Shown: one piece after another, positions 22,094-27,138 of the stretch
How positions within the stretch are numbered: position 1 is the stretch's first letter
Layout of the letters: each line of letters opens with the position of its first letter
Assembly (NCBI GenBank): GCA_948467395.1
Contig: CAOKDX010000001.1
Coordinates: 1 to 64,000 of the forward strand
Direction of reading: 5' to 3'
DNA: 64,000 nt
Source: an uncultured Clostridia bacterium
GTDB lineage: Bacteria; Bacillota; Clostridia; Lachnospirales; Lachnospiraceae
Notes under the pieces: generated by a model
Told to the model about the DNA's origin: nothing
The model's database searches: none
What the model saw: only the letters and a program-made list of their open reading frames with translations
Made by a program: the position numbers and the translations under genes

Positions 22094-23281
22094 ATGGCTA
22101 AGGAAAAGTATGTAAGAAGTAAACCGCATTGTAACATTGGTACGATTGGTCATGTCGATCATGGTAAGACAACTCTGACAGCTGCTATCACAAAGGTACT
22201 GGCTGAGAGAGTATCCGGAAACGAAGCTACTGATTTTGAGAATATTGATAAGGCTCCCGAAGAGAGAGAGCGTGGTATTACAATTTCTACCGCACACGTT
22301 GAGTACGAGACAGATAACAGACACTATGCACACGTTGACTGCCCGGGACATGCTGACTACGTTAAGAACATGATCACTGGTGCGGCACAGATGGACGGCG
22401 CTATCCTTGTTGTAGCTGCTACAGACGGTGTTATGGCTCAGACAAAGGAGCATATCCTTTTGTCCCGTCAGGTAGGCGTTCCTTATATCGTTGTATTCCT
22501 GAACAAATGTGATATGGTAGACGACGAAGAGCTGATCGAGCTGGTAGAGATGGAAGTTACTGAGCAGCTGGAAGAGTATGAGTTCACTGACTGCCCGATC
22601 ATCAAGGGTTCCGCTCTGGGCGCTCTGGAAGATCCCAACAGCAAATGGGGCGACGCTATCATGGAGCTGATGAGCACCATCGATGAGTATATTCCGGATC
22701 CGCAGCGTGATACAGATAAACCGTTCGTAATGCCTGTAGAGGACGTATTCTCTATTACAGGCCGTGGTACAGTTGCTACCGGACGTGTAGAAGCTGGTAC
22801 ACTTCACCTGAACGACGAAGTAGAGATCGTTGGTATCAAGGAAGAGACAAAGAAAACAGTTGTAACTGGTATCGAGATGTTCCACAAAGAGCTGGATGAG
22901 GCTCAGGCTGGTGACAACGCCGGCGTACTTCTCCGTGGTGTTCAGAAGACCGAGATCGAAAGAGGACAGGTTCTCTCCAAACCCGGTTCACTGACCTGCC
23001 ATACTAAGTTTACCGCTCAGGTATACGTTCTGACAAAGGACGAGGGTGGACGTCATACTCCATTCTTCAACAACTACCGTCCGCAGTTCTACTTCCGTAC
23101 GACTGACGTAACAGGTGTTGTTCAGCTTCCGGAAGGAACAGAGATGTGCATGCCTGGTGATAACGTAGAGATGACCATCGAACTGATCCACCCGATCGCT
23201 ATGGATCAGGGTCTGACATTCGCTATCCGTGAGGGTGGCAGGACTGTTGGGTCTGGTCGTGTGGCTACAATTATTGAGTAA
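22094..23281 (+). CDS. tuf: elongation factor Tu
   Basis: A 395-aa GTPase that delivers aminoacyl-tRNA to the ribosome. G1 [11 protein letters not shown]3 [15 protein letters not shown] and G4 NKCDMVDD are intact, as are domains 2 and 3. ATG 22094 follows AGGAGGACGTTTAGAA. The last 59 nt, including the stop codon, are repeated with only synonymous changes at 27080-27138. This makes the tuf 3' end the left boundary of the Septu island. The gene itself is full length and presumably functional. Confidence 0.97.
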
Positions 23282-23283
23282 TT
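23225..23283 (+). repeat. att-like repeat L: 3' end of tuf
   Basis: These 59 nt match 27080-27138 at 53 positions. All six differences are third-codon, synonymous changes, and both copies encode [22 protein letters not shown]. Direct repeats of a gene's 3' end on both sides of an AT-rich segment are the expected product of site-specific integration that restores the target gene. Confidence 0.8.
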
Positions 23284-23303
23284 TGATTATTGTTTCAATT
23301 TGT

Positions 23304-23333
23304 GGGGCTTTCCGGAAATGGAAAGCCCCTTTT
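23304..23333 (+). terminator. terminator of tuf
   Basis: A perfect 10-bp stem GGGGCTTTCC/GGAAAGCCCC (23304-23313, 23320-23329) with 6-nt loop and TTTT. It lies inside the island boundary, so the element carries its own tuf terminator. Confidence 0.85.
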
Positions 23334-23421
23334 GCAATAAAAATTTTTTAAACGAAGAATGTGACATGAGTTTAATTTGACTTTAATAATAAAAGGATGA
23401 TGTAGAAAGAAGAGGATAAGT

Positions 23422-24474: not shown

Positions 24475-24556
24475 TACTCGATTTTTCATATAGTAATAGT
24501 TTAGTTGATATGTTATACTAAAATAGTACAAAAAATTTTTTAACGGGGTATTTATA

Positions 24557-26098
24557 GTGAAGTTCTTTATTGTGGATTCAATTAATGAAGTTGAGGGAAA
24601 AGATGTAATAGGACTTATAGCTGACAACTGGAACGATTGGTTTACTTTTAAGACGATGTATTCAGTTGTTTATTTTGATGCAAACGGTTATTGTAAGAAC
24701 CTTGGCTCAGTAAAAATTGGAGAAAAAGATCAGGAAGAAGGGAGACCTGATCTTCCTTCTGAATTTGAGCAATTGGAATCTAATTTTTTTTCATTAGGGC
24801 AAAGTGATTCATACTACTTGGAATTAACATCTCTTGGAGGTGATGTAAGAGATGAGATTTTAAATGCCTTAAATGATATTGCGTATGATAATGCAATATA
24901 TAAGAAATTTAGAAATCAAAAAGTAGTATATGATTCTTTAATGAGGAGTATTGCGCAGACTACTGTTCTGGGACAATTTCATCGCTTGGCAAAAGGGCAG
25001 GTTAGACTTTCAAAATATAATTTTAATTATATTTTGGAAAATAAAAGCACACATGAGGGAACAAGTTTTCATTTTGAGGTGCATCCAAATTCAAAACCGC
25101 CAACAAATGTACATGTAATAATTGGTCGTAATGGGGTTGGAAAAACATATTTATTGACTAATATGGTAAGATCCATTATGAATAATGATGGCTTATTTTA
25201 TGAAAATGAAGAAGATGGAGAAATAAAAGATGCTGCTCAAATATTTGCGGGACTAGTTTTTGTGTCATTTAGTGCGTTTGACTATGAAATACCTTTAGAA
25301 AATGAGGCGACTAATATTAAATATAATTACATTGGATTAAAGAGGAGAGAAAAAAATGGTAATCTTGTAAATAAAAAGGTGGAAGATCTGACTGAGGAGT
25401 TTATTGAAACTTTGCGAACATGCTTTATGAATTCTAAATTGAATTTATGGAAAGATATAATAGGAATATTAAACTCAGATCCAATATTTAAAGAAAATAG
25501 GATTTCTGAACTTTTAAATGAGGGGGAGTTTCAAAAGACAAAACATGTAGGAATTGGAGAAATTGAAGATATAATTGCAAATGCAGGTAAAGTTTTTAGC
25601 GATCTTAGTAGTGGACATAAAATTGTATTATTAACATTATCAAGTCTTATAGCACGAGTAGAGGAAAGGACACTGGTTCTAATGGATGAACCGGAAGTAC
25701 ATTTGCATCCGCCGCTGTTGGCAGCTTTTACTCGTGCTATTTCAGAACTGCTTATTAATAGAAATGGAGTTGCCATTGTGGCAACTCATTCACCTGTAGT
25801 TTTGCAGGAAGTACCAAGTGCTTGTGTCTGGAAATTGCGAAGATATGGAGCAAGTGTTTCCGCAGAGCGCCTTCAAATAGAATCATTTGGAGAAAATGTG
25901 GGATTACTAACAAGTGAAGTTTTTAGACACGAAGTAACAGAATCTGGTGTTTATAGAATTTTAAGAGAAAATGTTGAAGAATTTGACTCTTTCCAAGAAA
26001 TTATGGAAGAGTTTAATGGTAATTTGGGATATGAGGCACAAGCATTTTTGAGGGTATTATTAAAAGAAAAAAAGAATCGGATGAACGATAATGATTAA
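24557..26098 (+). CDS. ptuA: Septu-like PtuA ATPase (AAA/SMC-type) of an anti-phage system
   Basis: A 513-aa ATPase. Walker A is VIIGRNGVGKTYLL (about 188-200), an ABC-like signature FSDLSSGHKIVLL is near 350, Walker B LVLMDEPEVHLHPPLL near 375 and the switch ATHSPVVLQEVP near 410. This OLD/SMC-like architecture, followed by an HNH nuclease, matches the two-gene Septu system (PtuA senses, PtuB cuts nucleic acid). The start is a GTG at 24557 with only a weak GGGG ahead. It overlaps ptuB by 8 nt. Septu is assigned from architecture and order; a plain AAA-HNH pair of another defence type remains possible. Confidence 0.78.
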   Translation: MKFFIVDSINEVEGKDVIGLIADNWNDWFTFKTMYSVVYFDANGYCKNLGSVKIGEKDQEEGRPDLPSEFEQLESNFFSLGQSDSYYLELTSLGGDVRDEILNALNDIAYDNAIYKKFRNQKVVYDSLMRSIAQTTVLGQFHRLAKGQVRLSKYNFNYILENKSTHEGTSFHFEVHPNSKPPTNVHVIIGRNGVGKTYLLTNMVRSIMNNDGLFYENEEDGEIKDAAQIFAGLVFVSFSAFDYEIPLENEATNIKYNYIGLKRREKNGNLVNKKVEDLTEEFIETLRTCFMNSKLNLWKDIIGILNSDPIFKENRISELLNEGEFQKTKHVGIGEIEDIIANAGKVFSDLSSGHKIVLLTLSSLIARVEERTLVLMDEPEVHLHPPLLAAFTRAISELLINRNGVAIVATHSPVVLQEVPSACVWKLRRYGASVSAERLQIESFGENVGLLTSEVFRHEVTESGVYRILRENVEEFDSFQEIMEEFNGNLGYEAQAFLRVLLKEKKNRMNDND

Positions 26099-26930
26099 AA
26101 TTAATATGCCTAGTGAAAAGGTAAAAGAAGTATTTAATAAATGTATTAGCCAAGTTGCTGATAAAGATTTAAAGATATTACTTAAATCTTGTGAAAAGGA
26201 ATTGGATGCAGATGAGAAATTGTATATTAAAGCTGGGGAGGAAAATAAATTATGTGAATTTCCTCCAAAGGATAAAGTAAATGGTGTTGTTAGCATTGAA
26301 GAAATGAAAAAGATATATACATATCGTATGGTTGGATTAAAACAACCAGGTCGATTTTATTATAATAAATTATTAAATTCTGTACAAATATGTCCTTTTT
26401 GTGGAGTTAGAGATGTTGCAACATTAGATCACTTTTTACCCAAATCTAAGTATGCAACAACTGTTGTGACGCCTGCTAATTTGATTCCATCATGCCGTGA
26501 TTGCAATAGTAACAAGGACATCTATACGGCTAGTGATTTATATGATGAAGTATGGCATCCATATTTTGATGATTTTCAAGGGGTAAGATGGTTATATTGT
26601 TTTTTGCAAAGTAGTGAACCTCTTGAAATAACATTTTATATTGATACATCAAAACCTGATATTAAAGACGAAGATAAAAATAAGATAAATAATAGTTTTC
26701 ATGTCTTTAAATTGAAAACGTTATATGAAATTCATGCATTAAAAGAGTTGAATGATATTGAGATTTATATGAAAAAATTGAGAAATGAAGTTGATTCATT
26801 AGATGTGAAGGAACATTTAGCTTGGATTTATGAAAGTAATAAAATAGTAAATAAGAATTCTTGGAAAACGGCTTTGTATGATGAGTTGAAAGATAACGAA
26901 TGGTATATTAATGATTATTTGTTAAACTGA
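26091..26930 (+). CDS. ptuB: Septu-like PtuB HNH endonuclease
   Basis: A 279-aa protein with an HNH domain at about residues 99-145. The zinc pairs are CPFCGV and CRDCNSNKD, the catalytic His-containing strand is ATLDHFLPKSKY, and the central Asn is in TPANLIPSC. The N-terminal ~95 residues and C-terminal ~130 residues are helical and unrecognised. ATG 26091 lies inside the ptuA 3' end, so translation is coupled. Expected role is degradation of phage or host nucleic acid once PtuA is triggered. Confidence 0.8.
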   Translation: MIKINMPSEKVKEVFNKCISQVADKDLKILLKSCEKELDADEKLYIKAGEENKLCEFPPKDKVNGVVSIEEMKKIYTYRMVGLKQPGRFYYNKLLNSVQICPFCGVRDVATLDHFLPKSKYATTVVTPANLIPSCRDCNSNKDIYTASDLYDEVWHPYFDDFQGVRWLYCFLQSSEPLEITFYIDTSKPDIKDEDKNKINNSFHVFKLKTLYEIHALKELNDIEIYMKKLRNEVDSLDVKEHLAWIYESNKIVNKNSWKTALYDELKDNEWYINDYLLN

Positions 26931-27079
26931 TTCACATACGGGTATTTTAACGGATTACTCTCTTAGTTTATTTTGAGTTTCATATTACTAAGTATGGCAC
27001 AAAAAATCTAACTTTGTAAATGTTATTGCATAAAATTAACGATTTTTCATTATTTGATACTACATAAAATACTATCATA

Positions 27080-27138
27080 ATCCGTGAGGGTGGCAGGACA
27101 GTAGGGTCTGGCCGTGTGGCTACTATCATCGAGTAATT
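27080..27138 (+). repeat. att-like repeat R: displaced tuf 3' end
   Basis: Second copy of the tuf end, described at 23225-23283. It is in the same orientation and encodes the same 18 C-terminal residues plus stop with different codons. It is preceded by a stop-rich AT stretch, so it is not expressed as a protein. The 150 nt before it (26931-27079) hold nothing recognisable. Confidence 0.8.

Follow-up and report, generated by a model that had tools for sequence, protein, structure and literature searches.

Cis-mobilizable elements (CIMEs) and tandem accretion are described for integrative and conjugative elements (ICEs) and integrative and mobilizable elements (IMEs) in the available sections of PMC5704250 and PMC7563491. 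In Dehalococcoides, according to the available portion of PMC3146451, islands are arranged in tandem downstream of the essential gene ssrA, each bounded by a copy of the gene end, and 15 of them have no integration module. Here, a 64,000-nt stretch of DNA from an uncultured Clostridia bacterium of the Lachnospiraceae (the window; assembly GCA_948467395.1, contig CAOKDX010000001.1, positions 1 to 64,000 of the forward strand) was analysed for a segment with a Septu-like gene pair that lies directly downstream of tuf, the gene for EF-Tu. This segment, the window element, is very probably a tuf element that has no integrase and stands in tandem with a second, decayed one. On the preferred reading it is a cis-mobilizable member of a family of tyrosine-integrase elements found at the tuf 3′ end, and would be mobile.

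Like the CIMEs, the window element keeps attL and attR, each with a tuf-end core and an arm pair, between which recombination is predicted; none of its genes matches a relaxase or integrase family; and at the 3′ end of a housekeeping gene, which is restored, it has a second element as its tandem neighbour. By analogy, it would work like a CIME, with which it agrees in the anatomical features compared, and could be mobilized in cis. As to an origin from an ICE or IME, the hairpin at the left end resembles that of type A tuf elements, but no piece of a clade integrase is left in the element. The clade integrase that an autonomous tuf-site element has of its own is absent. Compared with the CIMEs in the available sections of PMC5704250 and PMC7563491, the site is tuf, the arm type is private, and the integrase clade, host family and cargo differ. 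The Dehalococcoides islands, as far as the available portion of PMC3146451 describes them, resemble the window and other tuf arrays in their tandem order, in the end copy at each bound and in the lack of an integrase in some; they have a serine recombinase, an RNA gene as target and 20-bp repeats, whereas the tuf elements have tyrosine integrases and a protein-coding site of ~54 nt under codon-level constraint. No report of tuf as an integrase site was found among titles and abstract openings in the open-access literature, subscription papers being outside the search. Tuf is absent from the available text of PMC5704250, PMC7563491 and PMC12904643, the last of which, on gut IMEs, names other integration sites in the part available.

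The tuf end as an integration site in relatives

Downstream of tuf in G005, the nearest relative, come a regulator, a tyrosine integrase (P0001) and replication- and mobilisation-like genes; the integrase was assigned by PF00589, the other roles by inspection of the translations. When P0001 was used to scan named genomes, 24 loci were obtained, one of which (L091) is the G005 contig; 14 of the 24 records are Lachnospiraceae. In 19 of the 24, the integrase is preceded at 1.0-4.4 kb by an EF-Tu tail, attached to tuf in 16 and free in 3, and the other five are one 24% match in Rhodobacter, one contig that starts 242 nt before the integrase, and three integrase fragments. The type A integrase, a second subtype, occurs in 22 of 299 genomes of the family (25 matches, E ≤1e-100). 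Of these 25 matches, 19 are preceded on their own contig and strand by a tuf end (11 stretches and 6 further ones, G067 at 3.0 kb and G325 at 10.3 kb); of the other six, three are near a contig end and three (L154-L156, 43-45% identity) have no tuf end in the upstream DNA examined. In a tree of 39 integrases, the ten from beside tuf ends form one group (94/96), with a further genus member, L058, as sister at 100/100, the contig of the latter beginning 755 nt before its integrase. The sequence data thus support the last 17 codons of tuf as the putative attachment site of a tyrosine integrase clade in this family, probably the Lachnospiraceae.

Tuf elements form head-to-tail stacks in which a tuf-end copy bounds every element. 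Two or more copies (E up to 0.01) are present in 16 of the 22 integrase-selected genomes behind 22 P0001 loci; ten of the 16 are same-contig, same-strand arrays with retrieved intervals, and in G375 the copies are 137 kb apart. The complete intervals retrieved between adjacent copies measure 4.6-21.5 kb and, in these integrase-selected genomes, contain a clade integrase in the direction of tuf in 24 of 24 cases. G293, a genome in a single contig of 3.37 Mb, has tuf and two more tuf-end copies.

Several further arrangements were seen beside tuf. On contig CAJTEN010000007.1, the N- and C-terminal parts of one tuf-type integrase (L107 and L109) are ~117 kb apart, as if a large element had entered the integrase gene; the tuf-end copies there are ~137 kb apart. 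In several relatives, tuf is directly followed by a ~150-nt repeat whose ends are inverted (like GATAAGCGC/GCGCTTATC) and which contains a hairpin (L040 ~1556-1716, L049 ~1643-1800, L050 ~1638-1790). In G013 (L049:2001-3528), an AbiEi/AbiEii-like toxin-antitoxin pair comes directly after tuf, and no second tuf-end copy was seen there.

Ends of the window element

A preliminary description of this DNA had reported 59-nt direct repeats with six synonymous mismatches around an AT-rich, integrase-free island at the tuf 3′ end, and repeat, GC and codon analyses confirm it. The repeats (23225-23283 and 27080-27138; 53/59 identical, 90%; spacing 3855 nt) are the longest and most similar direct repeat within 21-29 kb. 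GC content per kb is 28-35% at 23-28 kb versus 45-56% at 1-23 kb. All six differences are at third positions, six synonymous and none nonsynonymous, and six random substitutions would leave no nonsynonymous codon with a probability of 0.00024. Searches inside the element by tblastn with ten clade integrases and by PF00589 revealed no integrase, and relatives have integrase-bearing elements at the same nucleotides. Blastn of the region against its own genome (2.99 Mb, 42 contigs) gave two significant tuf-end copies and no third, the seven further matches being 14-25 nt long with E >1. The same genome has 11 PF00589 integrase matches, none of them on the window contig (C1).

The repeats stand as bounds of the element with two refinements: the minimal common core of the tuf-end copies begins at CGTGAGGG (27083 in the distal window copy), and the DNA past the right copy reads as the left end of a second element, not as plain chromosome. 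The distal copy is thus also the left att site of an older, decayed element, which the preliminary description had missed. After the distal copy (27080), the DNA reads TACAATTTATTCAGTAAA, as in the G005 element, followed by the GGTGCCAAAACGGTGCCATAAAA arms; the remainder of this second element appears to be gone, except for a 32-nt remnant (Table 1). Since the left end and the remnant follow the distal copy, the array order is tuf, Septu element, decayed element. The decayed region also encodes an 88-aa Mor-like protein (27420-27686; PF08765, slightly below the cut-off), followed by a GNAT acetyltransferase.

The ends of tuf elements have paired 7-mers with a period of 11. A 7+4+7 template was scanned over offsets 0-200 at both ends of 24 complete elements, with its place unconstrained. 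All 24 have right arms 118-122 nt before the core; the best left set lies 84-86 nt after the stop codon in 15, at 175-195 nt in 7 and elsewhere with a low score in the last two, L175 (broken integrase) and L181, which have no proper left arms. Perfect arm sets are present in 20 of the 24. The 7-mer varies by subtype (GGTGCCA, TGGCTAC, TGGTTCT, TGATAAC, TGATACT, TGCTTCT). A core with paired arms is the layout of lambda- and Tn916-like tyrosine integrases, and we infer that the period-11 repeats are integrase arm sites; such an arm code would predict which integrase pairs with which element.

The same search in the window element gave arms at +85 and 120 nt before the core, with a score of 36/42 and an AGTTTAA-like 7-mer type of its own. 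This score at the first-class place was reached by 0 of 2000 dinucleotide shuffles (maximum 30; 11 of 2000 anywhere) and by 0 of 2000 pairs from the element interior. As arms of its own type stand at the family positions, the ends of the element look genuine, and the Septu segment appears to have both ends of a tuf element. The recombinase arm sites of a private type that its ends probably carry were not recognized in the preliminary description.

Exchange of the tuf tail

Collection by protein motif yielded 54 distinct tail copies, 20 of them free, and all 20 distinct free copies begin with CGTGAGGG and have non-tuf DNA in front. Over all loci, 43 distinct stretches were classed as free, one class of which begins otherwise (AGAGAAGG). 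In comparisons of the tail on tuf with free tails of one and the same genome (19 pairs from 16 genomes, which are related and so not independent; copies on different contigs in four pairs, G363, G373, G006 and G025), 95 codon differences are synonymous and 2 nonsynonymous, against a random expectation of 25% synonymous.

Compared with tuf of G005, the window gene has 33 differences over the 1134 positions of the body (2.9%) and 10 over the 51 positions of the tail (19.6%; p = 5.8e-6), with at most 5 differences in any 51-nt stretch of the body. Because the tail is so much more divergent than the body, it was swapped. In the other nine relatives, with bodies already 6-15% different, p ranges from 0.038 to 1, and in G004 and G017 the tail is no more divergent than the body; the eleventh, G013, was left out, as its tuf differs in length. 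The 57 distinct tuf ends include 11 close pairs, and in each of these the divergence of the tail exceeds that of the preceding 51 nt (means 14.4% vs 4.5%); these pairs overlap, are not independent, and include one of two tuf-like genes in one genome (L018, L048). The codon counts and the tail-body comparison bear out the earlier proposal that the tuf tail had been replaced with no change in the protein. A 17-codon protein-coding attachment site in an essential gene would thereby have been replaced repeatedly with the protein unchanged, and tuf tails used in phylogeny or typing may have a foreign history. L048 (G028:C16) also contains an open frame, truncated at the edge of the stretch and still at least 499 aa long, in which an EF-Tu-like tail follows an N-terminal part unlike EF-Tu.

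Integrase-less intervals and their cargo

In a survey of the 299 family genomes, which were not chosen by integrase, 225 have a tuf-end match and 37 have two or more, the latter figure including second tuf genes and contig-edge fragments and therefore being an upper bound for arrays. Same-contig pairs of two whole copies define 19 intervals in 18 genomes: 11 contain an integrase or a broken form, and 8 contain none by tblastn with the ten clade integrases and by PF00589 (the window, G350, G087, G269, G337, G199, G168 and G251). G358:C10 (L187), also without an integrase, was excluded because its left copy is cut by the contig edge (9 of 20 if counted), and L184, L185 and L186 because each has one copy only. 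Integrase-less intervals are thus a recurrent class, which the preliminary description had overlooked. The idea that they are rare was rejected: the 24 of 24 intervals with an integrase came from genomes found by their integrase.

Arm pairs are present at both ends in three of the eight (the window, G168 and G251), while the rest have intact right arms only. The G337 interval has a right arm that differs in type from its damaged left arm, and looks like two elements fused by deletion. G350 and G199, from two genera, have in common an AlwI-type restriction-modification block (87.8% over 5049 nt) and differ in their right halves, that of G199 matching G220 (88.8% over 2342 nt), which argues that the cargo is shuffled. 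The interval of G251 (L194, G251:C10:5200-23900) comprises 17.7 kb between two free copies, and its genes read as transporters and amino-acid or redox metabolism, so that defence is not the sole cargo.

A hand-picked set of 40 cargo proteins from 11 loci, a subset of both cargo frames and loci, was compared with PADLOC, and 23 of the 40 have matches at 1e-25 or better. These include type I, II and III restriction-modification, retron-type reverse transcriptase, a bSEFIR protein, GajA, QatA, QatC, OloB and PDC-S02. A defence match was obtained for 8 of the 11 loci, or 9 counting QueC; L116 and L125 have none among two proteins each. The left arms and the regulator of a tuf element in L120 are separated by kinase-like, QueC-like (PADLOC 2.4e-28) and more genes (1734-5918), possibly a deazaguanine-type system not yet described.

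These results agree with several expectations of the preliminary description. A recombinase family of one clade regularly accompanies tuf (19 of 24 P0001 loci, 19 of 25 type A integrases); other cargo does occur between tuf-end repeats, namely restriction-modification, other defence, and transporter or metabolic genes; and both tuf ends with no insert between them were seen in none of the intervals examined, the shortest being 1.4 kb (G269).

Proposed mechanism and alternative explanations

On integration, strand exchange would occur inside CGTGAGGGTGG, as identity between elements starts at its CGT and the first difference between the window and G005 tails is 11 nt on. The incoming element would have brought the tail now on tuf and displaced the older tail to the distal copy. 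Tails no longer encoding the EF-Tu end would be selected against, the site spanning the last 17 codons, which could explain the 95:2 ratio. The window element may have entered, or lost its integrase, beside tuf and ahead of an older element that has since decayed. Since both arm pairs are retained, a cognate integrase from a co-resident or incoming tuf element could excise it in trans or in cis, alone or with its neighbour.

Several observations weigh against this account. Neither a circular form nor an empty site of the window element was seen, and in IMG/VR the exact right-end pattern had 0 matches, as did the common-type pattern. The window arms are imperfect (6/7 on each side, where 20 of 24 other elements are perfect) and may be decaying; the 7+4+7 template was moreover written after inspecting ends that included the window candidate. 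The tail excess is strong in one of ten relatives (p <1e-5), two having p near 0.04 and seven p >0.08. The same cargo was not found at tuf in any other genome. No tuf-clade integrase was found in the own genome, either by a tree of P0001-like integrases, in which its two members fall outside the clade, or by the type A search at 1e-100, so the element may at present be stuck there.

Two versions of an integrase-less tuf element in tandem may be distinguished. The element may be a decayed remnant of a former full tuf element that lost its integrase, replication and relaxase genes, is immobile, and has ends that persist by inertia, to which we give somewhat less than an even chance. The missing tuf-clade integrase and the imperfect arms fit decay, as do the five integrase-less intervals that have no intact left arms (G350, G087, G269, G199, G337) and the stop within the integrase frame of the G067 element; yet both window arm pairs are at canonical places, the cargo genes are open, and tblastn and PF00589 detect no integrase fragment inside. 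It is also possible, if rather doubtful, that the element is a non-autonomous cassette, an integrase-less unit that spreads in trans by means of integrases which fit its arm type and are either resident or incoming. Of the 19 intervals in the same-contig survey, 8 are integrase-less, three of these with both arm pairs, and related AlwI-type cargo occurs at tuf in two genera with no integrase; but this cargo is little more alike between the genera (88%) than tuf is (83%), and the two intervals have different right halves, so that a recent move of the whole unit is not supported; nor is a cognate integrase known for the window arm type. Like integron gene cassettes and satellite elements, the window element is cargo without an integrase of its own and might rely on one encoded at another place; it differs from both in its core with paired arms (attC sites were not searched for).

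More broadly, we tentatively suggest, with appreciable doubt, that a defence system of cassette-like organization docks at the tuf 3′ end in this family. Stacking, fusion and exchange would take place there among autonomous elements and integrase-less cassettes, each with arms specific to its subtype. The end of tuf, one of the most conserved bacterial genes, would pass time and again from lineage to lineage under codon-level constraint, and the Septu cassette and others like it would spread on the integrases of other elements. Mobile immunity in this large bacterial family can be looked for at a constant location, the DNA downstream of tuf.

Two explanations outside this family of readings were considered. 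Two tuf genes are common in bacteria, and the distal copy could be the end of a duplicated and mostly deleted one. The uniform start of the 20 distinct free copies, with unrelated DNA in front, and the arm repeats at a fixed distance before the core make this extremely improbable; a second tuf gene relic, a possibility raised in the preliminary description, was rejected on these grounds. A misassembled or misbinned, chimeric metagenome contig is very unlikely. The own genome is in 42 contigs, and those of four relatives (L046, L051, L052 and L053, from G026, G021, G017 and G004) stop ~20-145 nt past the tuf stop codon, as expected where tuf-end repeats break short-read assemblies, which may leave arrays under-counted. 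However, the same architecture stands within the single contig of G293 and is thus not an assembly artefact, and the window arms and the left end of element 2 fit the family; a chimera was accordingly rejected.

Cargo and other features of the window

The features of the locus are listed in Table 1. By sequence comparison, the cargo would be a Septu-like ATPase/HNH defence pair with a regulator. As in Septu and PDC-M01 of PADLOC, a PtuA-type ATPase gene is followed by an overlapping HNH nuclease gene; unlike Septu, the best models are those of the candidate system PDC-M01A/B, and the 206-aa protein and the regulator are both additional. The ATPase matches PDC-M01A at 3.6e-191 and PtuA1 at 5.7e-170, and the HNH protein matches PDC-M01B at 9.8e-85 (PADLOC) and HNH at 1.7e-4 (Pfam). 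Of Septu type I, the PtuA-type AAA ATPase and an HNH protein are present, and no PtuB model is among the matches listed for the latter (25 of 44 PADLOC rows, PDC-M01B and one PDC-M62B); anti-phage activity may be predicted. In PADLOC and Pfam, relaxase and integrase families are absent from the matches of all four genes.

Table 1. Features of the tuf locus in the window
Feature	Position	Strand	Evidence
tuf (EF-Tu); last 17 codons, putative attachment site	22094..23281	+	frame; tail vs body divergence against G005
attL core, CGTGAGGGTGG... up to tuf stop codon	23228..23281	+	repeat scan, tail-copy collection
Element 1 left end, hairpin resembling type A terminator	23282..23345	+	alignment; terminator scan misses the hairpin (T-run rule)
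Putative left arm pair, period 11, +85 after stop codon	23367..23384	+	arm scan
206-aa protein, hydrophobic N-terminus, no Pfam/PADLOC family, accessory cargo	23422..24042	+	
HTH_26 (Cro/C1-type) regulator	24059..24319	-	Pfam
Inverted repeat, 29 bp, 97% complementary, 4-nt loop, between regulator and ATPase gene	24394..24455	.	
PtuA-type/PDC-M01A AAA ATPase, 513 aa	24557..26098	+	PADLOC, Pfam
HNH nuclease PDC-M01B, 279 aa, frame overlaps ATPase gene	26091..26930	+	PADLOC, Pfam
Putative right arm pair, period 11, 120 nt before core	26963..26980	+	arm scan
attR core of element 1 = attL of element 2; read as displaced earlier tuf tail	27083..27136	+	repeat and codon comparison
Element 2 left end, decayed, GGTGCCA-type arms at 27170-27187	27137..27192	+	alignment
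32-nt remnant, identical to regulator-terminator region of type A tuf elements (G006)	28732..28763	.	32/32 vs L040; 32/32 at L041, shifted by one

A search for relatives of the HNH protein in IMG/VR gave 5 pattern-matching stretches, none of them confirmed. Seven plasmid records match the window element DNA, covering 2-7% of it, and 21 phage records have tuf-like matches (20 listed). An Rfam scan of 22000-29500 gave nothing at gathering score, and a promoter scan was uninformative (18 found vs 23.2 expected). Terminator-like sites number 4 against 1.1 expected, the attL hairpin not being one of the four. A terminator-like hairpin at 24455-24475 directly follows the 29-bp inverted repeat, with a terminator, an operator or an RNA as candidates.

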